This document shows positions 1 to 42,873 of a DNA stretch of 42,873 nt, piece by piece. A program made the translations under genes and the position numbers. A model generated the notes under the pieces. That model made no database searches. It saw only the letters and a list, made by a program, of their open reading frames with translations, and was not told where the DNA came from. Within the stretch, counting starts at the first letter, position 1. Every line of letters begins with the position of its first letter. The DNA is from a virus, in the IMG/VR virus record IMGVR_UViG_3300022213_000014, positions 1-42,873 of that record. One strand, 5' to 3'.

Positions 1-126
1 CACGCAGGCAGGCACCCCGAACGTCACGGAGCAGGGAACCGGGAACTTCGGGACATACCAGCTGTTCTTCGGCTCGCGTGGCGGCACGACCTTCTTCTTC
101 AATGGCCGCGAGTACCAGACCGTCAT
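1..126. repeat. Left copy of the terminal direct repeat
   Basis: These 126 bases are identical to 42737-42862. Beyond base 126 the two copies diverge: the left continues ctgcgg and the right tcgcgg. Both continuations keep the same reading frame open. Such an overlap usually marks a circular assembly graph, or a circularly permuted or terminally redundant phage genome. Joined here, the molecule would be about 42,736 bp. Confidence 0.95.
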
Positions 127-4561: not shown

Positions 4562-5241
4562 TCCGCGACTACTCATACGAATGCGACGACCGCGCAAGCT
4601 GGGAAGCCTTCGCCAAGGAGATCGGCATTCTCGACGCGGAGGGCAGGCCGACGCCGGGGATGCACGTTGACTGGATCGGCAAGATCGAGGACAAGGAGTA
4701 CGTCAACGTCCGATACGTCGAAAGCCGGAACGTCCCCGTGGCGCAGAGGGTGAGCCTTCTCACGTCCTTCAGCAGCCCCTCGGTGCGGTGGACGGACCCC
4801 GCAACCATCGAGCACTACCCCCGCATCTGGGCAGGCGGAATGACGCCGCTCACGGACGAGATGGCCGGGGGAATCCACGAGACGCTCTACCTTGAGCCTC
4901 TGGTGGAGCGGTCTGACGATCTCAAGGAGAAGCTCAAGAAGGAGATCGCGTGGACGGCGGAGGAGGACTGGACGAATAACCCGATCATGAAGGGCGACCG
5001 CAGGACATACGATGACGCGCTCTGGGAAAGCCTCGTGGACTACAACGTCTGGGCGCCGCCGATTGGCTGGCGTGAGGTTGTCACGGAGGGGTATCCGCAG
5101 TGGCGGCAGCCGACGGGGGCGCACGACGCATACCAGAGGGGCGACCGCGTCTCGCATATCGGCAAGAACTACGAGAGCACCATCGACGCCAACGTCTGGG
5201 CACCCGACGTTTACCCCGCCGGGTGGATGGAAATTGAATGA
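4558..5241 (+). CDS. Tail-associated protein with C-terminal CBM5/12 (chitin-binding-like) domain
   Basis: The product has 227 residues. Residues about 185-227 match the carbohydrate-binding module family 5/12 pattern, with AYQRGDRVSHIGKNYEST followed by NVWAPDVYPAGW. A shorter related YNVWAPPIGWREV stretch precedes it. The N-terminal 150 residues were not recognised. The ATG overlaps the upstream stop by four bases and follows GGAGG closely. In this context the domain probably holds the particle to cell-wall or surface polysaccharide during adsorption. A role in lysis is possible because lysis genes follow directly. Confidence 0.7.
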   Translation: MIRDYSYECDDRASWEAFAKEIGILDAEGRPTPGMHVDWIGKIEDKEYVNVRYVESRNVPVAQRVSLLTSFSSPSVRWTDPATIEHYPRIWAGGMTPLTDEMAGGIHETLYLEPLVERSDDLKEKLKKEIAWTAEEDWTNNPIMKGDRRTYDDALWESLVDYNVWAPPIGWREVVTEGYPQWRQPTGAHDAYQRGDRVSHIGKNYESTIDANVWAPDVYPAGWMEIE

Positions 5242-5261
5242 AAATCAAGGAGAACCAAGTA

Positions 5262-5621
5262 ATGGATAAGAAAATCTCTCTCGCCTTCCTCATCGGTGTC
5301 GTCGTCGGCATCATTCTCATGCTCATCGTCGGCATGTTCAATAGCTCGGCGCAGGCCAGCGTGCCGAAGTACATGCTTATCGGCGACAAGGGCTCGTGGA
5401 TCATCTCCGCGATCTTCGCGCCCATCGTCGGCCCTATGGCTATCGTCGGCTCTATCGTTGATCAGTCTGAGGGCAAGGTCCACACGAAGGCCCTGCGCCG
5501 CACGGCTATCCTGATGACTGTTCACGCTGCCATCGGCAGGAAGGAGAAGAAGGGCAGGAAGCACATCGAGGTGTGCTACTCGACCGGAAACTGGGTCAAC
5601 GCCCCAATGGTGTGCCGCTGA
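5262..5621 (+). CDS. Small membrane or secreted protein, holin/lysis candidate
   Basis: The product has 119 residues. Residues 5-22 form a hydrophobic helix after the charged start MDKK. The motif SSAQA that follows could be a signal peptidase site, so a secreted product is also possible. A second hydrophobic stretch (about residues 45-65, ISAIFAPIVGPMAIVGS) and a basic C-terminal half follow. The ATG at 5262 has AAGGAG nine bases upstream and is preferred to the in-frame ATG at 5238. It lies just before the endolysin gene, where holins and spanins often sit. The exact lysis role is not proven. Confidence 0.55.
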   Translation: MDKKISLAFLIGVVVGIILMLIVGMFNSSAQASVPKYMLIGDKGSWIISAIFAPIVGPMAIVGSIVDQSEGKVHTKALRRTAILMTVHAAIGRKEKKGRKHIEVCYSTGNWVNAPMVCR

Positions 5622-5622
5622 C

Positions 5623-6051
5623 ATGAAAACCAGCCACAAGGGACTTGCGCTGATCAAGGAGTTCGAGGGTTTGCGCCTGTCGGCGTACCCCGACCCCGCG
5701 ACGGGCGGAGAGCCTTGGACGATTGGTTTTGGAAGAACGAAGGGCGTCCGCAAGGGCATGCGGATCACGAAGGAGAAGGCCGATGAGTTCCTCGCGGAGG
5801 ACATCCGGGAGTTCGAGCGTCACGTCCCGCATGGGAAGCAACGTGAGTTCGATGCCATGGTCTCTCTGTGCTTTAATATTGGGCCGGGTAATTTCCGCCG
5901 TTCGAGCGTCCGCCGTCATCACGTCGCCGGGGAACATGAACTCGCCGCCACCGCCTTCCTCTCGTGGAACAAGGCGGCGGGCAAGGTGATGCCGGGTCTG
6001 GTTCGCAGGCGGCTTGCTGAGGCGAAGCTTTATTTTGGAGTGACTGACTGA
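5623..6051 (+). CDS. Endolysin, GH24 lysozyme (T4/R21 type)
   Basis: This 142-residue muramidase would cleave the bond between MurNAc and GlcNAc in peptidoglycan at the end of infection. The catalytic signature is visible: Glu15 in FEGLRLSAY, Asp24 in PDPATGGEP and Thr33 in WTIGFG, spaced as in the R21-like branch with the ATGGEP insertion. The FNIGPGNF and PGLVRRR motifs are also present. Length is normal for the family. There is no N-terminal membrane helix, so export would need a holin; candidates are at 5262 and 6713. Identification is secure. Confidence 0.92.
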   Translation: MKTSHKGLALIKEFEGLRLSAYPDPATGGEPWTIGFGRTKGVRKGMRITKEKADEFLAEDIREFERHVPHGKQREFDAMVSLCFNIGPGNFRRSSVRRHHVAGEHELAATAFLSWNKAAGKVMPGLVRRRLAEAKLYFGVTD

Positions 6052-6710
6052 TGCCGCTTACACTTGGAATGCTGTCAGCCGGCCAGGGAAAGAAGGCCCC
6101 AATCATTATTGGTACGGCCACACGCGGCGATTCGGTTCTCACCATGAGCCACACCGTCGTCGCGGGGACGGCTTGCCTTATCGTGCGTGTCGTGGGGTTA
6201 GACAACAGTTTTGCTTTTTGGACGAGCACTACCGCAAGGTGGAGCAATCAGACGATGACCAAGGGCATCGAGGACGCAAGCACCGGGTCGACGTCCGCCG
6301 CCGCTAGTATCTTCTATATGATGAACCCCACCCCCGGAACGGGGAACGTTGCATTGACCTTCAACAACGCCGCCACCTCATGGAGTGTCTTCGCAGAAAA
6401 CTGGGAAAACGTCAGCGGTATTGGTGGTAGCGCCCGGACAGATGCGGGCTCAACATTAGTATCCAGTTTCAGCCACACCATACCGCGAAGCGACGCTTCG
6501 AACGTGCTAATCAGCGTCGCTAGCATGAGATACGGTAGCGGATGGACCCCTGGCCCAGGTAACATCAAAGAACATGAGTCTGGTGGTGGTGGTACCATTC
6601 AAGGGATGATTTACAAGAGCCGTGCTGAAGGAACAGATACCGCTGCGGCTTCATGCTCTGGCGGAGATAACAGATTTGCTGCGGTAACTCTTGAGTTGGT
6701 GGCGAGTTGA
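6051..6710 (+). CDS. Predicted virion beta-sandwich protein, function unknown
   Basis: The product has 219 residues. The sequence is rich in Ser, Thr and Gly and short on charge, and it has a FYMMNPTPGTGNVALTF stretch. That stretch resembles a pattern seen in many phage and surface proteins (hydrophobic-x-x-P-x-x-GT followed by a strand). No enzymatic residues were recognised. The ATG overlaps the endolysin stop, with GGAG ten bases upstream. Location inside the adsorption module suggests a tail appendage or decoration protein. Confidence 0.6.
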   Translation: MPLTLGMLSAGQGKKAPIIIGTATRGDSVLTMSHTVVAGTACLIVRVVGLDNSFAFWTSTTARWSNQTMTKGIEDASTGSTSAAASIFYMMNPTPGTGNVALTFNNAATSWSVFAENWENVSGIGGSARTDAGSTLVSSFSHTIPRSDASNVLISVASMRYGSGWTPGPGNIKEHESGGGGTIQGMIYKSRAEGTDTAAASCSGGDNRFAAVTLELVAS

Positions 6711-6712
6711 CC

Positions 6713-6934
6713 ATGAGCGACGAGCAGAAGAAACTGGCGTGGGACTTGACGAGGGCCTGCTTCTATTTGCTCGCGGGGATCGTCTGGGCGCAGATCATCC
6801 TTGCGTATGGCGTCTGGGCGGCCTGCGAACTCGACGGCACCCCCGGCTCCTGCCGCGACTTCGCGCCGAACATCATGGAACTCCTGACGGGCGGCCTCGC
6901 GGTTGTCCTCGCTTTCTCTGGAAGGATGAAATAA
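6713..6934 (+). CDS. Small membrane protein with two helices, holin candidate
   Basis: The product has 73 residues. One hydrophobic helix spans about residues 12-33 (LLAGIVWAQIILAYGVW) and a second about residues 53-68 (MELLTGGLAVVLAF). A short segment with two Cys (CELDGTPGSC) lies between them, and the tail is positive (SGRMK). Size and topology fit a small class II-like holin, and the endolysin is one gene upstream. The ATG at 6713 is favoured over an in-frame TTG at 6707. The ORF at 5262 is the alternative holin. Confidence 0.6.
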   Translation: MSDEQKKLAWDLTRACFYLLAGIVWAQIILAYGVWAACELDGTPGSCRDFAPNIMELLTGGLAVVLAFSGRMK

Positions 6935-7710
6935 TGGCTACGCTACCGAACACCGGCTTTACTATCCCGACTGTAGGCGCTGACAGCGACCAGTGGGGCG
7001 GAATCGTCAACACGGCCTTCAGCGGCTTCGACGGATTCATCCAGGACGTCTCCGGCGCGAAGGTGCAGCGGGTTGCCAACGGCGGAACGGGGGCGGCTGA
7101 CGCAGCCGGAGCCCGCACCAATCTCGGCATCCAGCCCCTGCTCGATCTGAAGGCTCCGCTTGCCTCGCCCACGTTCACGGGTACTGTCGTCCTCCCAGTG
7201 GCGACCTCCATCGGCCCGGTGACGAGCGTTCAGATAGGCTACCTCGATGGCGTTACGAACAGCATCCAGGCACAGTTGAACGGCAAGGCGGCCACGTCTC
7301 ACCCACACGTCATCGCTGACGTCACCGGCCTCCAGGCAGCTCTCGACGATAAGGCATCCGTGGCGGCGCTCAACACCAAGGCTGACATTGCAGCCCTCGC
7401 CATTGTCACCAAGCGTGACGTGGCGGCAAGCGGCGACATACTTGCGACGGACGGAAACAAGATGCTGGCATCGCAGGGGACCGGGGCGGTTACGCTGACG
7501 ATTCAGCCTGACGCCACGATCGACGTTCCGATCAACAGCCGCATCGACCTGACGCAGGAGGGCGCGGGTGCCCTCTCGATCGCGCCGGGCGCTGGCGTCA
7601 CACTGCAGTCTCTCGGCGACAAGCGCAAACTGGCGGGACAGTATGCCGGGGCTACGCTATACAAGTACGCAGCCAACTCGTGGCGTCTCTACGGAGCGTT
7701 GACCACATGA
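6934..7710 (+). CDS. Tail fibre protein
   Basis: The product has 258 residues. The start MATLPNTGF...GADSDQWGGIVNTAF, the VANGGTGAADAAGARTNLG segment and the LASPTFTGTVVLP segment are classic phage fibre signatures. The LNGKAATSHPH stretch is shared with the fibre at 1365. An AALDDKASVAALNTKADIAAL shaft of heptad-like repeats follows, then a C-terminal beta domain. ATG follows AGGATGAAATA and overlaps the upstream stop. Confidence 0.75.
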   Translation: MATLPNTGFTIPTVGADSDQWGGIVNTAFSGFDGFIQDVSGAKVQRVANGGTGAADAAGARTNLGIQPLLDLKAPLASPTFTGTVVLPVATSIGPVTSVQIGYLDGVTNSIQAQLNGKAATSHPHVIADVTGLQAALDDKASVAALNTKADIAALAIVTKRDVAASGDILATDGNKMLASQGTGAVTLTIQPDATIDVPINSRIDLTQEGAGALSIAPGAGVTLQSLGDKRKLAGQYAGATLYKYAANSWRLYGALTT

Positions 7711-9257
7711 GCCAGAACATCGTCCTGAAGATGCCCCCTGGATTGGTGACGGACCTCACGTCCTACTCCGCCAAGCAGATGTGGCACGACGGGAACCTCG
7801 TCCGATGGACGGAGGAGGGTTCCCTCATGCCCGTCGGTGGCTGGGTCAAGACGAACGAGTTCGGTGAGGTGACCGGCCCCATCCGCTCGACCTACTCGTG
7901 GCGCTCGAACGACTTCCAGCCGTGGGGCGCTGTCGGCTCCGAGGACAAGGCCTACGCCTTCCGGCCAGGCGAGAACGACAACCTTACCGACATCACACCT
8001 GATGATCTCGTGTGGGAGCCTTCCGAAATGGAGGGCTACGGCTCAGGGCAGTACGGCGTCGGCCGCTACGGCCTCGACAGCGAGAGCGGCGGCGGCATCA
8101 CCTCCAAGTTCCTCGAGGCCTTCTGGACGTTCCACAACTGGGGCGAGGATCTTCTTGGCGTCCACGCCATCGACGGTCGCCTCTGGTACTGGAAGCAGGG
8201 TGCCGCAACGCCTTTCGAGGTGGTCGCCAACGCGCCCATCAAGAACTACACCTTCATCGTCACGAACGAGCGGCACGTCATAGTGCTGGGTGGCGACACC
8301 AACCCGCGCAAGGTCAAGTGGTGCTCCCGCGAGGACATCACGCAGTGGACGCCATCTGCCACGAACTCGGCGGGCGGATTCGACCTCGACACAACAGGCA
8401 TCATCCTGGCGGCAACGCACGTTCCGCAGGGCATCCTTGTCTTCACGGACATCGACATCCACCTGATCGAGTACATCGGCCCACCTTTCTACTACTCGCG
8501 CCGCCTCATTAGCCACGACACCGGCATCATCGGCCCGAAGGCCTTCGCGTCGACGGCCAACGGCGTGATCTTCATGGGGCCGAACAGTTTCTGGGCCTAC
8601 AGCACCGGCGTTATTCGCGTCCCCTGCCCGATCTCAAACGACGTCTTCACCTACAGCAATCTCAGCAAGCCGCTACGCGTGTTCATGGGTGAGAACGAGG
8701 AGACACGCGAGACGTGGATCTTCTACCCCTACATCGGCTCCACCGAGCCTGACCGCGTGGCGATCTTCAGATACGACAACAACGACAGCTCGACGTGGTG
8801 GTCCAAGGGCATCCTGAAGAGGACGGCGTGGCTCAGCGCCATATGGACGGAGAAGCCATATGCAATGGACAATAAGGACGTCTACCAGCACGAGATCGGC
8901 TGGACGGACAATGGCGCACCGCGCGACATCTGGATCAAGAGCGGCGCAATGGAAATCTCGAACGGCGACACGAACATGCTCGTCAACCGGATCTACCACG
9001 ACGCCGTGGTGATAAAGGACAACCTGGGCACCACCTACGCGCCAGATCCTGTCCCCTACTCCCTTGAGTTCTTGCAAGCGAACGCCCCGCAGGCGAAGAA
9101 GTACAGCACCGGCCCGATTACGCTGAACTCTGAGAACGGCTTCACGACAACCCGATTCAAGGCGCGTCAGATCGAGATGACCGTCCGTCAGGTGTCGCAA
9201 GTTCCATGGGCCATGGGTGACCTACGCCTGCGCGTCAAGGCAATGGGGGCGCGCTGA
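7707..9257 (+). CDS. Tail hub/stabilisation protein resembling P22 gp10
   Basis: This is a 516-residue protein. Repeated strand motifs include GRLWYWKQG, ERHVIVLGG, GILVFTDIDIHLIEYIGPP, TGIIGPKAFAS and NGVIFMGPNSFWAY. They give a beta-propeller-like pattern typical of the gp10-like packaged-DNA stabilisation proteins that seal the portal-tail junction in short-tailed phages. The start ATG overlaps the upstream stop (ATGA). The family assignment rests on recalled motif layout, so the function is likely but not certain. Confidence 0.65.
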   Translation: MSQNIVLKMPPGLVTDLTSYSAKQMWHDGNLVRWTEEGSLMPVGGWVKTNEFGEVTGPIRSTYSWRSNDFQPWGAVGSEDKAYAFRPGENDNLTDITPDDLVWEPSEMEGYGSGQYGVGRYGLDSESGGGITSKFLEAFWTFHNWGEDLLGVHAIDGRLWYWKQGAATPFEVVANAPIKNYTFIVTNERHVIVLGGDTNPRKVKWCSREDITQWTPSATNSAGGFDLDTTGIILAATHVPQGILVFTDIDIHLIEYIGPPFYYSRRLISHDTGIIGPKAFASTANGVIFMGPNSFWAYSTGVIRVPCPISNDVFTYSNLSKPLRVFMGENEETRETWIFYPYIGSTEPDRVAIFRYDNNDSSTWWSKGILKRTAWLSAIWTEKPYAMDNKDVYQHEIGWTDNGAPRDIWIKSGAMEISNGDTNMLVNRIYHDAVVIKDNLGTTYAPDPVPYSLEFLQANAPQAKKYSTGPITLNSENGFTTTRFKARQIEMTVRQVSQVPWAMGDLRLRVKAMGAR

Positions 9258-9838
9258 TGTCGGTAAAGCTGGTCCTTCCGCCACCTCCAAAGACCTACGA
9301 CCCCTACTACGAGATGCTGCGCAATCGTGAGATCGAGCGTGTCATGAACACGAAGATCGGCGTGAACGACATCAACATCTTCGGGGGTCAGCCCTTCATC
9401 TCCCTGCGCGGGACGGACACCGCCTTCACGATCCCGACCGGCATCACGCCGAGGGTGCTGCCGTTCAACCTGCTCCAGAAGGACACGGACAAGGACATGG
9501 TGTTCGATCCGAACTCCTACTCCATAACGAACCCCTACGCGATGGACGCCGTGGTCTACCTTAACCTGCGGCATGCGGCAGCCCCAGGCGGCGACTACGA
9601 CCTGAACATCCAGGGCTACGACCTCGGCTCCCCCTTCGGTCCCCCGCTTACGGTGACGATCAAGAACACCGAGACGCTCGACGTCCGCATCACCCGCTTC
9701 GTTGTCGGCTTCCCGCCCGGCACGGTGTTCGACCTTCGCGCGTGGCACACCCGAGCTGGACCCGTATCCTTCAACATAGCGCTTTCGCAGTGGGACATTG
9801 CCCGCGTCTCGCCCAACCCCGCACTGGTGATCCCATGA
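9257..9838 (+). CDS. Predicted virion structural protein
   Basis: The product has 193 residues and was not recognised as a named family. It looks like a beta-rich domain: TAFTIPTGITPRVLPF, then the charged segment KDTDKDMVFDPNS, then strands such as AVVYLNLRHAA and TVTIKNTETLDVRITRF. It is the last GC-rich gene before the sharp change in composition at 9835. Its stop overlaps the next start by four bases, so the two are co-translated. A tail or baseplate role is inferred from neighbours. Confidence 0.6.
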   Translation: MSVKLVLPPPPKTYDPYYEMLRNREIERVMNTKIGVNDINIFGGQPFISLRGTDTAFTIPTGITPRVLPFNLLQKDTDKDMVFDPNSYSITNPYAMDAVVYLNLRHAAAPGGDYDLNIQGYDLGSPFGPPLTVTIKNTETLDVRITRFVVGFPPGTVFDLRAWHTRAGPVSFNIALSQWDIARVSPNPALVIP

Positions 9839-15833: not shown

Positions 15834-17340
15834 GCCTGGTTCACTGCCACCGACTATTGCAGGGCTTACGCCAGAGCCTAAAACAAAAAAGACTAAAACC
15901 TGGACTGAAGAGCTCAACGATTTTGGGCGCTTTCTTCTGGGTCCACACGGTGACGCTCTCTTTCAAGCTGGCGAGTTGGCTGCACAGTTTACTCCTGGTG
16001 CTGAAATACAAGATGTCCTAGAATCCAGCGGACAGCTTAGTAAAGGCGTGACCAATTTAAACCCGTGGGAAGCTGGAATGGGCTTGGCTGGGCTTATTGC
16101 AGCCTTTGTCCCAGGACCTAGTGGCAAGCTTGAGTTTCCCATTAAGCATGGTTCACAGCATAAACTTGCGCCTGAGGGTAATGAGATCTATGGCAAATTT
16201 GATCTTAGCAAAGCCCTTAGTGGTGAAGGCACTAACTATGAAGGAGCCGGTATTTATGGTGTAGATCCAGTTGGCACGGAGGTGGCTCAATACTATGCTG
16301 ACATGGGGTCACCTGAAGCTATAGCGAAGGTTGGCGGTGTTGATCTTGCAGATGAATTTGCCAAGTTAAGTAAAGAGTATAATACAGCTAGTCAATGGTT
16401 AGAACCAGAAGATGTAAAACAATTACGTGAAAAATTTGAATCAGTAGAAGACCTTCAGGAGCAGTTTGCTAAACAGAGTCTAGCTTACCAAGGTCTAAAT
16501 CCTGGAAGCGATGTTATTGAATTGCCCGATAGCGAGGTTGCTAAGCTTATTGATGAGGTAATACAGAATAAGTCTGTAGACACTTTGTTCATGGAAACTG
16601 ATGACGGTGTTGAAGCTGTCAAAGGTATGGATGAAGAGCTTTTATCCTTTTTGAATTCGTTTAAAGGCAAAGCCGCTACTATACAGCAGCCTGGCGGCTA
16701 TATTTATGATGCAATTGTGCACTCTAAGCCAGAAGACTTCCTTAATATGCACATGCCGCTTGCCTACCAAGATGACAAAGTAATATCAGCTGTAGACGAA
16801 TGGCTCAAACGTGCTCCCAAATCACAGTTTGATGATTACGATAAAGTACGTAAAAAGGTAATTGAAGATAAATATCATGTGCCGATTAAAGATTTAAGGC
16901 CTATATTAGGTGATCAGTACGCTACCGAACATGCAACTATTCTCAGTGACCTGGGCTTATCCGGCCAGAAGTGGTTCTCTAGCTATGGAGATGGACGCCA
17001 GCGTAGACGTGACTCTTTTGATCTATTTGAGCGGTTGTCAGGCAATAAAACACTGCAGCAAAGAACAGAGGATCTTCAGAAAGAAATAACTAAGCTTGAT
17101 AAACTTGTTAATGAAACACCGCTAGATAATGACAATATTCAGATGATAACTGAAGCCTTCAATAAAAAGGCTATACTTGAAAATCAGTTGCAAGCTATCG
17201 GCGGCAATAAATTTAAAGACGTAGAAGCTAGCCTTTACAACTTGTATAATAGAGATCCAGTGTATAATTATGTAATAAACGACCCGCAACGGATAACCAT
17301 CACGGGTCGTAAATTTGTACCTAAGGGTAGGCGCTATTAA
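15814..17340 (+). CDS. Large protein with ADP-ribosyltransferase-like polyvalent (ART-PolyVal-type) motifs
   Basis: The product has 508 residues. After a proline-rich N-terminus and a hydrophobic stretch (about 88-103, MGLAGLIAAFVPG), the protein shows KHGSQHKL (His112), KFDLSKALSGEG, YEGAGIYGV (about 143-150) and VAQYYADM (about 157-164). Later come GYIYDAIVHSKPEDFLN and, near the end, YNYVINDPQRITITGR. This order matches ART-like polyvalent domains: HGSPH, FDLSKIGTGEG, GWGLYFA, VAEYYR, LYEVDIP and NYVVFDD. A coiled-coil insert of about 80 residues splits the domain before the final strand. The gene ends the ejection operon, so the product may be injected and modify a host target. The start at 15814 avoids a 150-base overlap. 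Activity is inferred. Confidence 0.65.
   Translation: MANASLKPGSLPPTIAGLTPEPKTKKTKTWTEELNDFGRFLLGPHGDALFQAGELAAQFTPGAEIQDVLESSGQLSKGVTNLNPWEAGMGLAGLIAAFVPGPSGKLEFPIKHGSQHKLAPEGNEIYGKFDLSKALSGEGTNYEGAGIYGVDPVGTEVAQYYADMGSPEAIAKVGGVDLADEFAKLSKEYNTASQWLEPEDVKQLREKFESVEDLQEQFAKQSLAYQGLNPGSDVIELPDSEVAKLIDEVIQNKSVDTLFMETDDGVEAVKGMDEELLSFLNSFKGKAATIQQPGGYIYDAIVHSKPEDFLNMHMPLAYQDDKVISAVDEWLKRAPKSQFDDYDKVRKKVIEDKYHVPIKDLRPILGDQYATEHATILSDLGLSGQKWFSSYGDGRQRRRDSFDLFERLSGNKTLQQRTEDLQKEITKLDKLVNETPLDNDNIQMITEAFNKKAILENQLQAIGGNKFKDVEASLYNLYNRDPVYNYVINDPQRITITGRKFVPKGRRY
17279..17310 (-). terminator. Probable leftward terminator inside the end of the ART-like gene
   Basis: ACGACCCG (17279-17286) pairs perfectly with CGGGTCGT (17303-17310) across a 16-base loop. 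Read leftward, the stem is followed by TTTATTACATAATT. It lies about 25 bases past the stop of the GcrA-like gene and could end the leftward early transcript within the convergent gene. Confidence 0.5.
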
Positions 17341-17795
17341 CGTGGTCTAGAGCGCATTGGATCATAGCACTTCTGATGATGCTTAGGGCAGTAAGGGCTT
17401 TTCTCTTGCCGCTCTTCACCACAGAACAAATGCTTCCCTTCGCTAGACATCTTTACAGGATATTTACATTGCCTAGGCCCTAGGTCCTGGATTTCAATAA
17501 GCCCAGGAACTACTGTCTTTGGCACAAAGTGTAAAGGGATAAGCTTTACAGCTGGCGACATTGCTGGCTTAGGTATTTCAGGCTTAAGCTTAGCTTTCTT
17601 CTCGGCTTTAATCTTATGAAAGTTCTTTCCAGAAGCTGCTTTAAGCTTGACATCATGCCCGGCAATCCTAGCTCTGTGAATAACACCAACAATCACATTG
17701 CGGGAAACTCCGATCATTTTGCCTATTTCATTAGAAGACCTGCCACTATTCCAGGCTTCAATAATTAGTGGTAGCATATCGTCGTGCTTAGCCAT
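17337..17795 (-). CDS. gcrA: GcrA-like cell-cycle transcription regulator
   Basis: The product has 152 residues. The N-terminus has the GcrA helix-turn-helix pattern (LIIEAWNSGRSSNEIGKMIG then VSRNVIVGVIHRARIAG, residues 10-46). A basic Lys/Pro linker follows. The C-terminal domain has the family's Cys pattern CKYPV (Cys110), LFCGEE (Cys125) and SPYCPKHH (Cys136), then Cys143. Host GcrA in alphaproteobacteria binds sigma-70 holoenzyme and acts at promoters with methylated GANTC. The phage copy probably redirects host or phage promoters. It is the last gene of the leftward early operon, and its TAA shares a TTAA with the stop of the convergent gene. Confidence 0.85.
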   Translation of the reverse strand: MAKHDDMLPLIIEAWNSGRSSNEIGKMIGVSRNVIVGVIHRARIAGHDVKLKAASGKNFHKIKAEKKAKLKPEIPKPAMSPAVKLIPLHFVPKTVVPGLIEIQDLGPRQCKYPVKMSSEGKHLFCGEERQEKSPYCPKHHQKCYDPMRSRPR

Positions 17796-19130: not shown

Positions 19131-19420
19131 TGGAAGTTCTCCCCTTCATTTCCTGTGTTATATTCCCAGGCCCACTCTTTCCAGAGCCAATCAGCTGCAT
19201 CGTCAAAGTTTTCAAAGCGCCGACTTTCTCTACCAACATCAACATATACTGTACCGTCTTTAGACATCTCCATAAAAGAACCACAACCAGGGAAGACCCA
19301 AGCATTTTCACTTAGATCCATATCAATCCAATGTTGAAGCGATGGATGATCGTTAGCCTTATCTTGTTTTAGAAAGTCACCGAGTCTTACTGCTGTTTTC
19401 TTCCATTCTTCACGTGTCAT
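19127..19420 (-). CDS. Hypothetical early protein
   Basis: The product has 97 residues. MTREEWKKTAVRLGDFLKQ is a helix. A strand-rich middle contains SFMEMSKDGTVYVDVGRESR, and the end is Trp-rich (DDAADWLWKEWAWEY). The ATG at 19420 overlaps the preceding stop, so it is preferred to an in-frame ATG ten codons upstream. Not recognised. Confidence 0.6.
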   Translation of the reverse strand: MTREEWKKTAVRLGDFLKQDKANDHPSLQHWIDMDLSENAWVFPGCGSFMEMSKDGTVYVDVGRESRRFENFDDAADWLWKEWAWEYNTGNEGENFQ

Positions 19421-19902
19421 ATGTACCACTCCGGGGTTGATGTTTTCCATTGAGCAATCGCTCGCTTTTGCATTCTATAATAGTTACGATAAGCTTCGAC
19501 AGTGCTTTTGTGCTTACAATCATCAGGCATACATTGAGGAGGTGCTACAAAACAGTCTTCATTAATATGTGGTATACAACATAATACATCGAGCATTGCT
19601 GTAGTTTTATGCCAATGCCCATATCGAATATGAAACTCATTGCAAAGCTCATCAAGTAAATTTAAAAGCCATTCGTAATGCCAACTACTTTCTCTTACCC
19701 AAATAGCGCAAGGATGATTGACATGTGTTGCTTTATAAAGCCCTACTGTATCTTGCCAAACAACATTGTTAGGCTCAATAATTCGATGAGCTGTTGAAAG
19801 GAGCTGTGCATACTCAAGTATCATTTTGACAACGTGTTTGTCACAATGATATGAAGCACAGATTCTAGGATTGGGATCTAAATAAAATATGTTCACAGAC
19901 AT
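19417..19902 (-). CDS. Pyrimidine dimer DNA glycosylase-like protein (T4 endonuclease V superfamily)
   Basis: The product has 161 residues. The N-terminus NIFYLDPNPRICASYHCDKH and the following VVKMILEYAQLLSTAHR, then THVNHPCAIWVRES and the late MPDDCKH...VEAYRNYYRMQKR, match a phage family related to pyrimidine-dimer excision enzymes. Members may repair UV damage or act on modified phage DNA. GAGGAAG lies five bases before the ATG at 19902, which decides the start over an upstream ATG. It is the first gene after the promoter at 19924. Confidence 0.65.
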   Translation of the reverse strand: MSVNIFYLDPNPRICASYHCDKHVVKMILEYAQLLSTAHRIIEPNNVVWQDTVGLYKATHVNHPCAIWVRESSWHYEWLLNLLDELCNEFHIRYGHWHKTTAMLDVLCCIPHINEDCFVAPPQCMPDDCKHKSTVEAYRNYYRMQKRAIAQWKTSTPEWYI

Positions 19903-19923
19903 CTTCCTCAAGTGTATAAGAAT

Positions 19924-19993
19924 ATTATATCGTCTTTTGGCAAACAAGTACACTGCCAAATGTGCAACTCTGGCATGTCAATTCTGCATAGCT
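19924..19993 (-). promoter_or_regulatory. Leftward promoter with phased direct-repeat operator (site A)
   Basis: Read leftward: -35 TGTACT (19952-19947), a 17-base spacer, -10 TATAAT (19929-19924). Upstream lie two 14-bp half-sites, GCTATGCAGAATTG (anchor base 19979) and GAGTTGCACATTTG (anchor 19957), 22 bp apart. The anchor is the final G of the half-site. The distal half-site directly abuts the stop of the HNH gene. It drives the small-gene operon that ends in the GcrA-like gene. Confidence 0.75.
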
Positions 19994-23712: not shown

Positions 23713-23782
23713 ATTATAGCGCCTTTTGAACGCCTTGTAAACTGCCAATTTAACATGCCTGCTATGCCAATGGTGCATAGCT
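23713..23782 (-). promoter_or_regulatory. Leftward promoter with phased direct-repeat operator (site B)
   Basis: Read leftward: -35 TTTACA (23741-23736), a 17-base spacer, -10 TATAAT (23718-23713). Half-sites GCTATGCACCATTG (anchor 23768) and GGCATGTTAAATTG (anchor 23746) are 22 bp apart, with the same offset from the -35 as at site A. The region 23761-23781 is also a perfect 7-bp inverted repeat (GCTATGC/GCATAGC). It drives the SSB-HTH-SNF2-HNH operon. Confidence 0.75.
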
Positions 23783-24243
23783 TATGTTTTCTTTTTCCAT
23801 GCTTTGGAACGAATCCACTCAAGGTATAAGTCGAATTCGTATGCATTGGAAACTGTGATTAGCGGTTCAAGCATAGCTATTTTAGCTTTGACTTTACCAT
23901 GTCCAGCTGTTTCAACATTAGTAGACTTAACTGAGTCTATATCATAAAGTGAAAAGACGTTGTCTTTCCAAACAACAATATTAAATTGCCAAGGATGAAG
24001 GAAGTGGCGCATCTTAATAAAAGATGCCCATTGATACTGCTGAAAATAAATAAGATTACCACGTTGCATTTTAACTTCGTGGTAAAGTGTAATACCTTTC
24101 CAGATAAGTATTGTATCTGGCATAGAAGTGCCGATGTTTTCTATATGTGCTGCATATAGACCAGCTGCTTCGGCAAAGTCTTGCCATAAGTGTTCAGCAT
24201 CTTTTTCGTTAAAAGGCACACCGTCCTCGTTAAGTTCTGTCAT
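23782..24243 (-). CDS. VRR-NUC/PD-(D/E)xK nuclease-like protein
   Basis: The product has 153 residues. The catalytic pattern is TSMPDTILIWKGITLYHEVK, with D in PD and the E-x-K pair, followed by the Q-rich helix YFQQYQWASFIKM. This is the endonuclease core typical of VRR-NUC and related Holliday-junction or structure-specific nucleases in phage replication modules. The ATG at 24243 overlaps the polymerase stop. It probably resolves branched DNA or processes concatemers. Confidence 0.75.
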   Translation of the reverse strand: MTELNEDGVPFNEKDAEHLWQDFAEAAGLYAAHIENIGTSMPDTILIWKGITLYHEVKMQRGNLIYFQQYQWASFIKMRHFLHPWQFNIVVWKDNVFSLYDIDSVKSTNVETAGHGKVKAKIAMLEPLITVSNAYEFDLYLEWIRSKAWKKKT

Positions 24244-26102
24244 TTGCCTCCCCATGAATCCATAACTTTAAACTCCATAACTTGTGGCACTGTAAACTGA
24301 ATAGCGTTTTCAGTTATTTCTTTAATCATTACTGACTGTTGGCCACTCTGAATAGACGCGCCAATTTCATCGTAAAGCGTAATCAGCAATGGAATACGCT
24401 CTGCGTGAATCTGCACCAGGGCGCGCTTCATTTGCTCGGCAGCTGACCCCTGAACAATACTGTTCATAGCTTTATGAAGGCTGGCACGACGTACACTACC
24501 GTACTTTGCAATAGCTGCTTCCCTACCTTTAATAGGAAACTTACCACGCTGAAAGTATGGTGGTTCCCACATATCAAAGCGACGGCGCCTACCTAGCACA
24601 GTCTTAACGAACCCACGCTGCTCTGCTACTTCAATACAGTAATTCATCAACTCTTTCATAAAGGGGAAACCTTCATGATAGCTATTTAGCAAAGCCTGGG
24701 CTTTATGCGTAGACATCTGTAGGCCGTCAGCTAGTTTTTGTTTACCCATGCCATAAGCAACACCGAGATTAATAGTCTTAGCCTGAGTACGTGTGATAGG
24801 AGTGGGGCTAACTTTGTTAACCATTTCCATAGTCAAAGTGTGGTAGTCAGTATGAGGATTGTCAAGGTATACTTGACGTGCTTCAGCTGCCCCAGTCATC
24901 TTTAGGAGGTGAGCATAGTGCAAACTAATTCTTGGTTCTTGCTGACTGAGATCACCTTTGAACCATTTATCGCCTGAATAAGGAATAAAAAGCGATCTGA
25001 CAAGAGGTCCGAGTGTGGGGTGACGGCTAGGTATTTGTGCAAGGTTTGGATTGCTACAGGCAATGCGGCCACTGCGAGTACCTCCGGTGTCATCCCCGGA
25101 CATGAAAGATGAACCTCTAGTCTGGAACCATTGAGGATGAACTCTGCCTTCATAGGAATCCTCCAATATCATGCTTTGAATAAAGTCACGACGTATCTTT
25201 TCTTGCTGTCTGTATTTGCCAATCATATTAAGAAGTGGATCGTCAAGTGAAAGCAAGAACTCGTTAGATACTGAGTCGTTACCTTTCTCAGTCTTTTCAG
25301 GTACAATCCCCCGCTCTGCTACGGCAACTCCAAGCTGGGTTGGTGAGAACACATTCAGATCAGGGAACACTTGATAGATCTGGTCTAGCAATACCTGGTT
25401 TTCAGTAAGGAGACGATCGTTCTCTTTCTCCGCCCGATCAACATCAACAGGCACACCATTAATGCGCATCTCATGCAGCACTGGTATGAGCTGTGATTCT
25501 AGCTCAGCCACTTGCTGAAGCTCTTCCTCTATAATAATCTCTTTTTGAAGCTGGTAAATATCATATGTAGACTTAGCATCATACATTGCATATTCACCGA
25601 CTAAAGCTACTGGAAGCTTGAATACTTTAGACCAGTCTGGCTTACCGTCTACAATATAACCAGCCCTAAGTAAGGCACCTTCAATCTGATCTTTCTTTTT
25701 CTCTTCAAGACCATAGTCTTTACAAAGCGAGGCTAGTGAATAGCTCCGCTTTTCTTCATCGAGCAAAGCTTCAAGTATCTGTATATCTACTTGGTATGTT
25801 TTGTTGTCTATACCTAGTGACCAAAGGCACTCAGCATCATACCTATAGTTAGCAGCAATAGAAGTACGAATGTCGCTACTAAAAAGTTCAACCAACCAGG
25901 GCTTGAGTTGCGCGTAATCAACATTCCCGTCGCTATGACGTAAAGGAAAGTAACAATTAAACCCACTATCGAGATAAATAGCAATACCAATAACCTTTGC
26001 TCGCTTATAAACAAAGCCAGGTCCTTTCGACTTTAGATATGGATCCCATGTTTCAAAGTCGAATGCAAATTCACGTACTCTTGAGAGGTCTGGAAGTTCC
26101 AT
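24240..26102 (-). CDS. polA: DNA polymerase I (family A) with 3'-5' exonuclease
   Basis: The product has 620 residues. The exonuclease domain has Exo I FDFETW (Asp15, Glu17), Exo II ANYRYDAE and Exo III YAMYDAKSTYD. The polymerase has motif A GDLSQQEPR (about 384-392), motif B RTQAKTINLGVAYG (Arg438, Lys442, Leu446, Tyr450) and motif C TLYDEIGA (about 575-581). There is no 5' nuclease domain, as usual for phage PolA. Two details differ from E. coli Pol I: Leu at the Phe762 position and Tyr in place of His in the HDE motif. It is the replicative polymerase of the phage. Confidence 0.95.
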   Translation of the reverse strand: MELPDLSRVREFAFDFETWDPYLKSKGPGFVYKRAKVIGIAIYLDSGFNCYFPLRHSDGNVDYAQLKPWLVELFSSDIRTSIAANYRYDAECLWSLGIDNKTYQVDIQILEALLDEEKRSYSLASLCKDYGLEEKKKDQIEGALLRAGYIVDGKPDWSKVFKLPVALVGEYAMYDAKSTYDIYQLQKEIIIEEELQQVAELESQLIPVLHEMRINGVPVDVDRAEKENDRLLTENQVLLDQIYQVFPDLNVFSPTQLGVAVAERGIVPEKTEKGNDSVSNEFLLSLDDPLLNMIGKYRQQEKIRRDFIQSMILEDSYEGRVHPQWFQTRGSSFMSGDDTGGTRSGRIACSNPNLAQIPSRHPTLGPLVRSLFIPYSGDKWFKGDLSQQEPRISLHYAHLLKMTGAAEARQVYLDNPHTDYHTLTMEMVNKVSPTPITRTQAKTINLGVAYGMGKQKLADGLQMSTHKAQALLNSYHEGFPFMKELMNYCIEVAEQRGFVKTVLGRRRRFDMWEPPYFQRGKFPIKGREAAIAKYGSVRRASLHKAMNSIVQGSAAEQMKRALVQIHAERIPLLITLYDEIGASIQSGQQSVMIKEITENAIQFTVPQVMEFKVMDSWGGK

Positions 26103-26485
26103 TAAAATACGTCCTGTATTTTGTTACCAAAAGTATCAAGATAGATAATGAGTTCAATACCAGTATTGCGAATCATTAATCTACACTTTTCACATGGTGC
26201 TTCAGTGATATAAATTACAACGGCCTTTTCAATATCAGGGCATCTTAATAGAGCATTAGTTTCAGCATGAATAGCTTTGCATGACAGATTTGCGTCAAGG
26301 TAAGCAGGACAAGGTGTGAGTGGCTCGCAGTGCATATCGCCACGGGGTTGACCATTGTATCCAGTTGAAAGAATGTTACCATATTCATCCGTTATTACAG
26401 CTCCAACTTGTTTCTTCATACAGGTTCCGCGTTTTGCTAGAACCTGGGCTATCTCCAGCATTGTTTCATCTATAGTAGGTCTCAT
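26102..26485 (-). CDS. dCMP (deoxycytidylate) deaminase
   Basis: The product has 127 residues. The zinc-dependent deaminase signature is complete: HAET (His73, catalytic Glu75) and PCEKC (Cys98, Cys101). STGYNGQPRGDMHCE is the substrate-side motif typical of the deoxycytidylate branch. It converts dCMP to dUMP for dTTP synthesis and sits between the ThyA-family gene and the polymerase, with four-base overlaps on both sides. Confidence 0.9.
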   Translation of the reverse strand: MRPTIDETMLEIAQVLAKRGTCMKKQVGAVITDEYGNILSTGYNGQPRGDMHCEPLTPCPAYLDANLSCKAIHAETNALLRCPDIEKAVVIYITEAPCEKCRLMIRNTGIELIIYLDTFGNKIQDVF

Positions 26486-27294
26486 GTTGCACTCATCAAT
26501 CTATCTCTAGCAATACTTTGAGCAAAGCTGCGATCTTCATATTGCATGGATATAATGTTATACATAGCTTCTTTAACAGCTGGCCACTTCCAGATTTCAA
26601 AGGGTTCGTAATCATCGGCTGACTTAGCCACATAGTTGCTATACAAATGTGACAGTTTCTGCATCTGATCTTGATAGATATGACGCGAGCCTGCAGTAAT
26701 TACACAGATGCCTAGGTCAGTTGATTCTGCAAGCCTTGATGCTATCTCTGCAGCCATGCATGTAAAGGTGAACATGTCGTAAGGCAGACCCATGCCTACG
26801 TCTGATGAACGCATAGTTACTAGGCAATGGAGCTTATCATTACGTACAATAAACTGAAGAGCTACTGTACATGGAATATCTTTGCTGGGCTTAGGTGCCC
26901 GCTTCCATATAGTCATGACAGCTTGCCGAGTATTGCGGTCTTCATTAATCTTTTCAATAATATACCGTATCTGCTGCTTAAAAGGTGGACCATACGCACC
27001 TTTTAGCACTATTTGATCGTCAGAATATGGGCCTTGAATATGCTCAATCTCAGAATTCCAAGACAGCGCATTGCTACCTTCAATAACCCATAGTGGTTCG
27101 GCGCACATATAAAGCCACGATGTAGTAGGTTTTATAGTTACCAATGGATAATGCATATCAAAGCTAAGCTGATGTCCAAGCAATTCAAAGGACAGTCTGC
27201 CACCAGAGCCAGTAGATTTCTGTGGTGGCACAGCTTCTCCATTCGTGATTACATCACCTATAGTCTGGAGCCAGGCATCATTAGCTTTCATCAT
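26482..27294 (-). CDS. ThyA-family enzyme, probable dCMP hydroxymethylase rather than thymidylate synthase
   Basis: The product has 270 residues. The fold is clear: nucleophile Cys142 in DIPCTVALQF, then the phosphate-binding TMRSSDVGMGLPYDMF and late HIYQDQM. Thymidylate synthases have Asn in the LPFN motif to select dUMP; here residue 173 is Asp (LPYD). This is the change found in T4-type dCMP hydroxymethylase, where Asp favours cytosine. The product would be 5-hydroxymethyl-dCMP. ATG at 27294 follows GAGGA closely and overlaps the upstream gene by 14 bases; the adjacent ATG at 27291 is equally possible. Confidence 0.8.
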   Translation of the reverse strand: MMKANDAWLQTIGDVITNGEAVPPQKSTGSGGRLSFELLGHQLSFDMHYPLVTIKPTTSWLYMCAEPLWVIEGSNALSWNSEIEHIQGPYSDDQIVLKGAYGPPFKQQIRYIIEKINEDRNTRQAVMTIWKRAPKPSKDIPCTVALQFIVRNDKLHCLVTMRSSDVGMGLPYDMFTFTCMAAEIASRLAESTDLGICVITAGSRHIYQDQMQKLSHLYSNYVAKSADDYEPFEIWKWPAVKEAMYNIISMQYEDRSFAQSIARDRLMSAT

Positions 27295-27604
27295 CGGGTT
27301 CCTCAATAACTGAAGGTGCAACAGCTGGCGGAGCTTCATAGTTTGAGCCAACCAAGCCAGCATAGCCACAAATGTCTACAAGATTGTCTCTAGAACCTTT
27401 GCCCCCTGCTTCACGTGATACTTTAAGAAGTATCATCATCATGCCAACATCGAAAGGTGTAATCTCTTTCTTAAGATAAAGAGACCAATGCTTTGCAATG
27501 TTTTCGAAGGACTGCTGTGGCTCGCCATACTCTTGAGCACGCTTACCATTGATAAGCTCAGCTGCTTCATGCAGTAGCTTAGCTGCTTTTTTACGATCTA
27601 TCAT
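27281..27604 (-). CDS. DUF6378-like phage protein
   Basis: The product has 107 residues. LLHEAAELINGKRAQEYGEP, then FENIAKHWSLYL, FDVGMMMILLKVSREA and NLVDICGYAGL match a small helical family common in phage nucleotide-metabolism operons. A disordered acidic tail (PPAVAPSVIEEPDDES) follows. The arrangement resembles an all-alpha NTP pyrophosphatase fold, but the metal ligands are not obvious. The ATG overlaps the MazG-like stop (TGATG). Confidence 0.65.
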   Translation of the reverse strand: MIDRKKAAKLLHEAAELINGKRAQEYGEPQQSFENIAKHWSLYLKKEITPFDVGMMMILLKVSREAGGKGSRDNLVDICGYAGLVGSNYEAPPAVAPSVIEEPDDES

Positions 27605-27981
27605 CACTTTACCAAGTCGCTAAGATCTGGTGCTACCCAACCAGCAGGTTTAACTACATCATACACGGACTTGCGCTTGCTGTCTTTAACATCAACAGCC
27701 CGCACTTTTTTCATGTTGGCTTCGTGCACTCTTCTCCATGCTTCATTGAAGTCAAAGCCCTGCATATATGCTGTGCCAAGGGCTACGTACACTAGATCAA
27801 CTAATGCATCGAGTTGGTCATGCAAATTCTTTTGAGCAGATGCCATAGCATATTCGTTAATCTCTTCATCCATAAAATCAATACGAAAAACCCGCAGCTC
27901 ATTTGGAAGCGTGCGGGGTTTATCTTCATATTTAAGTGCAAACTTCTCGTGGAAGTCTTTAATATCTTTAAACAGATCCAC
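27604..27981 (-). CDS. MazG-like/all-alpha nucleotide pyrophosphohydrolase
   Basis: The product has 125 residues. The metal-binding pattern is FMDEEINEY followed by LHDQLDALVDLVYVALGTAY (ExxE then DxxxD), as in MazG and phage dCTP/dUTP pyrophosphatases. It would hydrolyse a dNTP to the dNMP. Next to a dCMP-hydroxymethylase-like gene, dCTP is the attractive substrate. It starts with GTG at 27981; AGGAGG five bases upstream supports that. It follows a stable UUCG hairpin. Confidence 0.8.
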   Translation of the reverse strand: MDLFKDIKDFHEKFALKYEDKPRTLPNELRVFRIDFMDEEINEYAMASAQKNLHDQLDALVDLVYVALGTAYMQGFDFNEAWRRVHEANMKKVRAVDVKDSKRKSVYDVVKPAGWVAPDLSDLVK

Positions 27982-28199: not shown

Positions 28200-28697
28200 T
28201 TATTCAGCGGCTTCCAGATCGCCTTCTGGCTCATCTGAGAACTCATCGTCTTCATCACCAAGGATTTCCTCAGTGACGATCTTACGAGTCTTACGGGCGC
28301 CTGGATTCTTGACCGGTGCACGCTTGAACACGTTCTCCATGGTTTCACCAGTGATAGGATCAACCATGCTCTCGGCGGAAGCACGCTTGCCACCACCGCG
28401 AGGCTTATTGCCAAGGTTATCCTTGGTCTGTTCCATAATGTGAGAGGGAAGCTTACCGAGCATGGCGCGATAGTACGCAACAAAGCCAGGAACAACACTC
28501 ACATCCTTAGCCCGCGGAGAGAAGCGAGCCAGGTCACTGGAGATATGGTCGATGATAGCGTCTTCGCTAACCTTCTCATCATCCTTCTGCAGTTCAGAAA
28601 CGGCAAGGATAATAGCTGCAGCCTGGCTAGGAGCCTGTGCCATCAGCTTCTTAATCGACTCAGGTGTCATCTTATCAGAAAGCTTGTAGTAATACAT
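28200..28697 (-). CDS. Hypothetical early protein with acidic tail, possible third member of the YxxL-YYxxLK family
   Basis: The product has 165 residues. The N-terminal 85 residues (KLSDKMTPESIKKLMAQAP, then LAVSELQKDDEKVSEDAI and FVAYYRAMLGKLP) resemble in layout the two paralogues at 32400 and 33553. The rest is basic, then strongly acidic and probably disordered. GAGGAA lies before the ATG. As the first gene after the promoter at 28751 it should be strongly expressed early. A DNA-binding role is a guess. Confidence 0.6.
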   Translation of the reverse strand: MYYYKLSDKMTPESIKKLMAQAPSQAAAIILAVSELQKDDEKVSEDAIIDHISSDLARFSPRAKDVSVVPGFVAYYRAMLGKLPSHIMEQTKDNLGNKPRGGGKRASAESMVDPITGETMENVFKRAPVKNPGARKTRKIVTEEILGDEDDEFSDEPEGDLEAAE

Positions 28698-41898: not shown

Positions 41899-42128
41899 TG
41901 CTAAACAATCAAATTCCAAGCCGGGCCTTCGCAATCACTCCGAGTGACACGACGCGCATCGCTGCTTCCGGCGTCTACGTCGGCGTCGGCGGCGACCTCG
42001 TGGTAGAGCCTGAAAAAGGTGGTAATACTGTCACAATCATCGCAACGGACGGTCTGATGCTGCCTCTGCGTGTGGTGCGCGTCCTGGCGGCGACAACGGC
42101 GACAGACATCATCGGATTCGGAGCCTGA
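41898..42128 (+). CDS. Spike base protein, RCAP_rcc01079-like
   Basis: The product has 76 residues. FAITPSDTTRIAASGVYVGV then GGDLVVEPEKGGNTVTI and LRVVRVLAATTATDIIGFGA match the small spike-base family known from the Rhodobacter gene transfer agent. It is shorter than usual, so the copy may be trimmed. It anchors receptor-binding spikes on the particle. The gene marks the abrupt start of the GC-rich module. Confidence 0.75.
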   Translation: MLNNQIPSRAFAITPSDTTRIAASGVYVGVGGDLVVEPEKGGNTVTIIATDGLMLPLRVVRVLAATTATDIIGFGA

Positions 42129-42131
42129 GCC

Positions 42132-42873
42132 ATGAAGATTGGCGTGGGGATCGGCATTCCGTTCGTTGGAAAGGCTGGAGAGGCATTTACGCCTACTGGC
42201 CTCTTCCTGAACGGCGAGCAGGGCGTCTGGTACGACGCCTCCGACCTCTCAACGCTGTTTCAGGACGCCGCAGGCACGACACCCGTGACGGCTGTGGGGC
42301 AGCCCGTCGGTCTCCATCGCGACAAGTCCGGCAACGGCAACCACCGTGCCCAGACCGACACCGCCAAGCGGCCAACGCTGGGGCAGGACGAGAACGGGAA
42401 CTACTTCCTTCTCTACGACGGCGCGAGCCGCTTCCTCGTCACCGAGGATCCTGTGGACTTCACGGCGACGGACGAGATGTCGAGCTTCGTCGGCGTCCGC
42501 AAGCTGAGCGACGCGCTTCAGGCGACGGTCTTCGAACTCAGCGCAAGCGCCACGAGCGGCAATCCCGGCAGCTTCACGCTTCAAGGCCCCAGCGGCCCGG
42601 CTACGGACACATACCGCTACACGGGCGGCGGCACGACCTCCAGAAGCTCCTCGTTGACCGGGTACCCGGCACCCACCACCAACGTCGTCACCTACCTCCA
42701 GAAGATCAGCGGACCCCTCATCCAGCCCCGCATCGACACGCAGGCAGGCACCCCGAACGTCACGGAGCAGGGAACCGGGAACTTCGGGACATACCAGCTG
42801 TTCTTCGGCTCGCGTGGCGGCACGACCTTCTTCTTCAATGGCCGCGAGTACCAGACCGTCATTCGCGGGAAGA
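42132..42873 (+). CDS. Tail/adsorption protein with LamG-like domain (5' part; continues at base 2)
   Basis: This is the start of the gene whose remainder is at 1-1375. 247 residues are visible before the window ends. After a 20-residue lead, the region GLFLNGEQGVWYDASDLSTL, HRDKSGNGNHRAQTD, RPTLGQDENGNYFLLYDGAS and EQGTGNFGTYQLFFGSRGG forms a concanavalin A/LamG-like sandwich, common in phage adsorption proteins. The frame is still open at the last base. The last 11 bases differ from the matching left sequence (VIRGK here, VICGR there), so a choice of variant is needed when joining. Confidence 0.8.
   Translation, partial: MKIGVGIGIPFVGKAGEAFTPTGLFLNGEQGVWYDASDLSTLFQDAAGTTPVTAVGQPVGLHRDKSGNGNHRAQTDTAKRPTLGQDENGNYFLLYDGASRFLVTEDPVDFTATDEMSSFVGVRKLSDALQATVFELSASATSGNPGSFTLQGPSGPATDTYRYTGGGTTSRSSSLTGYPAPTTNVVTYLQKISGPLIQPRIDTQAGTPNVTEQGTGNFGTYQLFFGSRGGTTFFFNGREYQTVIRGK
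42737..42862. repeat. Right copy of the terminal direct repeat
   Basis: The copy is identical to 1-126 and lies within the LamG-like coding sequence. The 11 bases after it (42863-42873) do not match the left side, although gcgg is shared in register. Confidence 0.95.

Follow-up and report, generated by a model that had tools for sequence, protein, structure and literature searches.

A 43-kb phage carries a predicted dCMP 5-hydroxymethylase of the ThyA superfamily

Introduction

The occurrence of 5-hydroxymethylcytosine (5hmC) in phages is classical, and phage T4 has a dCMP deaminase and a dCTP-cleaving enzyme alongside its dCMP hydroxymethylase. In the latter enzyme, gp42 (PDB 1B5D, 6A9B), the reaction is terminated by a water molecule activated by Asp145, a residue at whose position thymidylate synthases (TS) have Leu; the D145N change abolished product formation, S94A kept about 25% of the activity, and an Asp three residues before the catalytic Cys is a published signature of hydroxymethylation (PMC6400193). 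The Streptomyces CMP 5-hydroxymethylase MilA (PDB 5JNH, 5B6D, 5JP9) serves antibiotic synthesis and not DNA modification, and it owes its ribose preference to Ala176 and Lys133 (PMC5175136). According to PMC8670742, which cites Liu and Santi (1992), a TS in which Asn177 is replaced by Asp methylates dCMP, this single residue being enough for the conversion. We infer that the enzyme of phage Xp12, whose DNA has 100% 5-methylcytosine (5mC; PMC7653180), also methylates dCMP.

Modified cytosine has already been linked to enzymes similar to the one described here, namely Asp177 TS homologues of environmental phages (MetaGPA, 2021; PMC8670742). In that work, positions 177 and 147 ranked first among the residues associated with modified-cytosine contigs, and some of these contigs carried carbamoyltransferases. 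DNA of the Stenotrophomonas phage vB_SmaS-AXL_3 (AXL3) resisted 35 of 37 restriction enzymes, all 35 with G/C in their sites, while the two that did cut have sites made up of A/T only (PMC7504290), a pattern consistent with modified cytosine; for comparison, the 5hmC-rich DNA of T4gt resists 82% of enzymes (PMC7653180).

Phage Genome and Thymidylate Synthase-Like Gene

The window analyzed in this work is the whole of an IMG/VR virus record of 42,873 bases. Its head genes were SU10-like (portal PF23899, capsid PF17236, adaptor PF24175), the relatives of the portal including Sinorhizobium and Rhizobium phages, and a homologue of the cell-cycle regulator GcrA, possibly controlling host cell-cycle genes, was found at 17337-17795 on the minus strand (PF07750, E = 6e-20); the portal relatives and the GcrA-like gene hint at an alphaproteobacterial host. 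The tail-fibre module (41900-42873 plus 1-9750) displayed about 57-67% GC vs. about 40-50% elsewhere, the change being abrupt near 41,900 and 9,750; either this adhesion module was acquired recently or the assembly is chimeric. An exact 126-base direct repeat (1-126 and 42737-42862, the final 11 bases beyond it diverging) looks like an overlap left by the assembly of a circular map, or else like a repeat within the tail genes.

The gene under study (26482-27294, minus strand) encodes 270 amino acids from an ATG located inside the end of the upstream gene, and an alternative GTG start at 27369 would extend the product to 295 amino acids. The 270-aa protein matched PF00303 in Pfam (E = 4e-24) and PHROG_160 (E = 2e-33). 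In the alignment with Escherichia coli TS (EcTS), the catalytic and substrate-binding residues Glu66, Cys142, Arg162, Ser163, Asp165, His205, and Tyr207 were all intact (EcTS Glu58, Cys146, Arg166, Ser167, Asp169, His207, and Tyr209, respectively), as was Arg123 (EcTS Arg126), whereas Trp80, Trp83, and the C-terminal tail of TS were gone, Gln occupying the Trp80 position. Three further replacements affected the active site: Asp139, three residues ahead of the catalytic Cys142, aligned with Leu143; Thr143, directly after this Cys as in T4 gp42, aligned with His147; and Asp173 aligned with Asn177. Relatives were collected by a profile scan of IMG/VR, which found 364, and the best 80 of these, that is, the loci most similar to the query, were kept; the two peptide patterns of the scan excluded the three positions just mentioned. 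In the alignment of 43 family sequences, Asp139 and Asp173 were Asp in all of them. Seven loci (the window, L007, and L012-L016) formed a subgroup.

Sequence, fold, and context together make dCMP hydroxymethylase (EC 2.1.2.8) the best assignment for this ThyA-superfamily protein. Our preferred reading, which we hold with a probability of roughly 0.83, is that the gene encodes a dCMP 5-hydroxymethylase and that its operon would drive the replacement, large or complete, of cytosine by 5hmC in virion DNA as a shield against restriction.

Operon Organization and Neighboring Genes

The gene belongs to a minus-strand operon whose junctions mostly overlap by a few bases (4 bases between deaminase and hydroxymethylase). 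It is headed by a 165-aa protein of unknown function (28200-28697) present in the seven loci of the subgroup only, and continues with a 125-aa MazG/PRA-PH-like all-alpha NTP pyrophosphohydrolase (PPase; 27604-27981; PF01503, E = 2e-16), a relative of DR2231 and candidate dCTPase/dUTPase, and with a 108-aa DUF6378 protein (27281-27607; PF19905, E = 1e-30). The ThyA-family gene comes next, and is followed by a 127-aa dCMP deaminase (26102-26485; PF00383, E = 2e-18; PHROG_174, E = 5e-33), a 620-aa family A DNA polymerase (24240-26102; PF00476, E = 3e-55) which would presumably use hydroxymethyl-dCTP (hm-dCTP), and a small 157-aa nuclease-like protein (23782-24255) related to a VRR-NUC-annotated protein behind the ct3Et533 polymerase.

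An earlier note on this DNA had placed the deaminase and the MazG-like enzyme in the operon, and both identifications were borne out: the HAE and PCxxC zinc motifs of the deaminase were invariant in 66/66 relatives, and residues E40, E43, D58, and D62 of the PPase (EExxE...DxxxD) in 69/69. The order PPase, hydroxymethylase, deaminase, DNA polymerase was conserved across 85 loci: 83 contained the PPase cluster, 72 the polymerase, which as a rule lay two genes beyond the hydroxymethylase on the downstream side, and 62 the deaminase cluster. Searched for directly, the deaminase turned up in 72 of 87 loci. The same note had also reported a T4 endonuclease V-like gene and the lack of a glucosyltransferase. 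The former is present (19417-19959; PF03013, E = 9e-6; PHROG_624, E = 1e-51), but repair enzymes of this kind are not specific for hydroxymethylcytosine (hmC) and the gene was therefore dropped as evidence; as to the latter, no glucosyltransferase emerged among the ORFs scanned against Pfam and PHROGs.

The DUF6378 gene lies at the position where relatives have a kinase. It was considered as a part of the pathway and rejected, as a TS-like gene was near only 2 of the 80 DUF6378 loci scanned, each a relative of the window that was already known; the domain is generic in phages, and the protein gave no match against the PDB. Its label in PHROGs, "phosphofructokinase" (phrog_474), looks wrong for a short phage domain.

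Of 87 loci, 65 had a nucleotide kinase and 50 a methyltransferase of Methyltransf_23 type, the latter a few genes upstream of the hydroxymethylase (for instance L046:5500-6408 and AXL3 gp31); this methyltransferase is a candidate further modifier of 5hmC in the relatives. In 12 loci a C5-cytosine DNA methylase (PF00145, one representative scanned) appeared a few genes upstream (for instance L021:1742-2785), an odd pairing with a hydroxymethylase if every cytosine already has a C5 group; the window has no such gene. In the Lactobacillus phage ATCCB, a "thymidylate synthase" with the residue code of dCMP hydroxymethylases adjoins a beta-glucosyltransferase, and glucosylated hmC is probable in this Gram-positive phage. 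Neither the kinase nor the methyltransferase of the relatives was detected in the window by a profile search in all frames, and both were also absent from the subgroup, which was counted against the preferred reading. T4, in contrast to the window, encodes glucosyltransferases and a dNMP kinase.

These gene contents bear on the alternative that hm-dCMP is made as proposed and the DNA base is then further modified, or only partly substituted, through an enzyme that was not recognized. Such an outcome, compatible with the assignment of the enzyme itself, seems possible, if rather doubtful: a methyltransferase stands beside the operon in many relatives, some have a NUDIX or DNA methylase gene, ATCCB combines the same code with its glucosyltransferase-annotated neighbor, and several ORFs of the window match no known family, whereas no candidate base-modifying enzyme was found in the window, where carbamoyltransferase and dihydrofolate reductase (DHFR) genes were not recognizable either. 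AXL3 gp28 belongs to the family of the window protein (33% identity), with the same code and the same PPase and deaminase neighbors, but AXL3 differs from the window in encoding ThyX, a methyltransferase, and a nucleotide kinase. Since additional candidate modification genes are present in AXL3, its restriction phenotype need not reflect plain 5hmC.

Residues Determining the Product

The earlier note had derived hydroxymethylation from the Asn-to-Asp change at residue 173. The change itself is present and the dCMP hydroxymethylase reading stood, but Asp177 alone fits a dCMP methylase equally well: this residue selects cytosine only, and the product is set at other residues. For this reason the hydroxymethylase signature, the acid three residues before the Cys, was tested, and the reading now has firmer grounds in Asp139 and Thr143.

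At EcTS positions 143/147/177, enzymes whose activities are mostly literature annotations or inferred from relatives showed Leu/His-or-Val/Asn in TS, Asp/Asn/Asn in the dUMP hydroxymethylases (SPO1, M6, Det7, Ab18, and P26218), Asp/Thr/Asp in the dCMP hydroxymethylases of T4 and Aeromonas as well as in MilA, and Asn/Pro/Asp in the Xp12-like enzymes, for which AXL1 and DoCa6 represented Xp12 (MT664984) and Bosa (LR743532). The window protein presented Asp/Thr/Asp, as did every family sequence retrieved (43/43 in the alignment). Asp139, which corresponds to EcTS Leu143 and T4 Asp145, and Thr143 are common to T4 gp42 and MilA, both tested on cytidylates, and neither is found in TS or Xp12-like enzymes; judged by these comparisons, they are the residues that would separate a hydroxymethylase from a methylase.

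A second alternative is an Xp12-like dCMP methylase that would carry out reductive methylation with DHF as by-product and give rise to DNA with 5mC. The Xp12 relatives do resemble the window in having Asp177, a deaminase, and a PPase, but they carry Asn143, Pro147, and Trp80 where the window protein has Asp, Thr, and Gln. In addition, a DHFR gene lies near the enzyme gene of AXL1, the Xp12 relative, whereas DHFR gave no match in the other loci searched, the window included. Taking into account also the tree described below, in which Xp12-like enzymes group with TS and the window protein does not, we regard methylation as improbable.

Two features departed from the T4 pattern or from the family. 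The site of T4 Ser94 was not conserved (GAYG in the window protein vs. SNYG), which was counted against the preferred reading; a Ser/Thr at this position, two residues ahead of the active-site Tyr, belongs to a T4-derived signature but is no strict requirement for hydroxymethylation. GAYG also occurs in the dUMP hydroxymethylases of M6 and Ab18. In the subgroup, the region of the phosphate-loop Arg21 was occupied by a 6-residue insertion at a place where relatives have Pro-Arg in the alignment, and this was likewise counted against.

Phylogeny and Structure

In the maximum-likelihood tree the family of the window protein formed one group (96/92), and the dUMP hydroxymethylases were the closest phage group to it (90/85). 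TS and Xp12-like enzymes grouped together (99/93) with the window protein outside, and the T4-type enzymes were separate. As far as the tree shows, the lineage would not be T4-like; an origin of the family inside the clade of T4 dCMP hydroxymethylases was not favored by the tree, yet a tree constrained to unite the family with the T4 type was not rejected by the AU test (p = 0.30, and 0.14 with the Gram-positive pair), and an independent origin is for that reason not claimed. T4 gp42 resembles the window protein in its Asp/Thr/Asp code and in lacking the C-terminal tail, and differs from it at Ser94, Trp80, and Arg127.

The AlphaFold model (mean pLDDT 94.6) retrieved MilA chains as its top seven PDB matches, ahead of every TS chain, and the family profile also matched MilA (E = 4e-41) better than the best TS (E = 6e-24), so that by profile and by fold MilA is the best solved match. 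MilA, a hydroxymethylase of CMP and dCMP which has Ala176 and Lys133, prefers CMP, whereas the window protein carries the residues of dNMP enzymes, Ser163 and Arg123; this deoxyribose-type pair was present in 43/43 family members and points to dCMP rather than CMP as the probable substrate.

The proximity in the tree raises the alternative of a dUMP hydroxymethylase working in a 5hmdU route, like SPO1 gp29 and the phage M6 enzyme. These enzymes have Asp143 and partly GAYG in common with the window protein, and SPO1 also the FSDDG and RQA motifs. However, Asn147 and Asn177, which select uracil, were found in all the dUMP hydroxymethylases compared, as against Thr and Asp without exception in the family of the window, which makes a uracil substrate very unlikely. 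An ordinary dTMP-forming TS with a divergent active site, the annotation "thymidylate synthase" that relatives often receive automatically, is the least credible of all, given that Asn177, Leu143, His147, Trp80, Trp83, and the C-terminal tail were all replaced or lost and that AXL3 has a ThyX-type enzyme for dTMP (PMC7504290).

Proposed Pathway

Starting from the residues, fold, and operon observed here and from their conservation, the chemistry, dCTP removal, incorporation, and protection of a dCMP hydroxymethylase pathway may be outlined by analogy with T4, MilA, and AXL3. Cys142 would attack C6 of dCMP while Asp173 reads the N3/N4 edge of cytosine; methylene-THF would donate the carbon, and water activated by Asp139 would capture the exocyclic methylene, yielding 5-hydroxymethyl-dCMP and THF. 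The MazG-like PPase may convert dCTP (and dUTP) to the monophosphate, thus removing normal dCTP and feeding the substrate, and the deaminase may divert part of the dCMP to dUMP for dTMP. The hm-dCMP would then be phosphorylated by a host or phage kinase, and the family A polymerase would take up hm-dCTP, so that virion DNA would contain 5hmC largely or wholly instead of cytosine and be shielded from restriction. Genome-wide 5hmC in virion DNA is likely by this analogy, incorporation being supported by the linkage to the PPase and by the AXL3 phenotype.

We further suggest, tentatively and at somewhat less than even odds, that the subgroup consists of small phages with naked, unglycosylated 5hmC for cytosine. 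Their dCMP hydroxymethylase, marked by a unique insertion in the phosphate loop, would stem from a non-T4 lineage near MilA and the dUMP hydroxymethylases, and the phages would do without a nucleotide kinase of their own. Under this suggestion, that lineage and not the T4 one would be the common route to hmC in environmental phages.

Significance

The environmental phages of the MetaGPA study resemble the window in having an Asp177 TS homologue with a changed residue 147 and PF01503 and PF00383 neighbors; the additions made here are that this phage is a member, that the residue code is clean, and that the non-T4 lineage is large and stands apart. Cytosine hydroxymethylation in phages that are not T4-like is under-recognized because its genes are annotated as "thymidylate synthase". 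Among the enzymes compared, the sequence at the three code positions is enough to tell apart dTMP synthases, Xp12-type methylases, and the hydroxymethylases of dUMP and dCMP. By the same code, environmental phages in the hundreds are likely to carry modified cytosine, which matters for host range, restriction, CRISPR resistance, and sequencing bias. A phage of 43 kb that has neither glucosyltransferase nor kinase would represent a minimal hmC system in nature.
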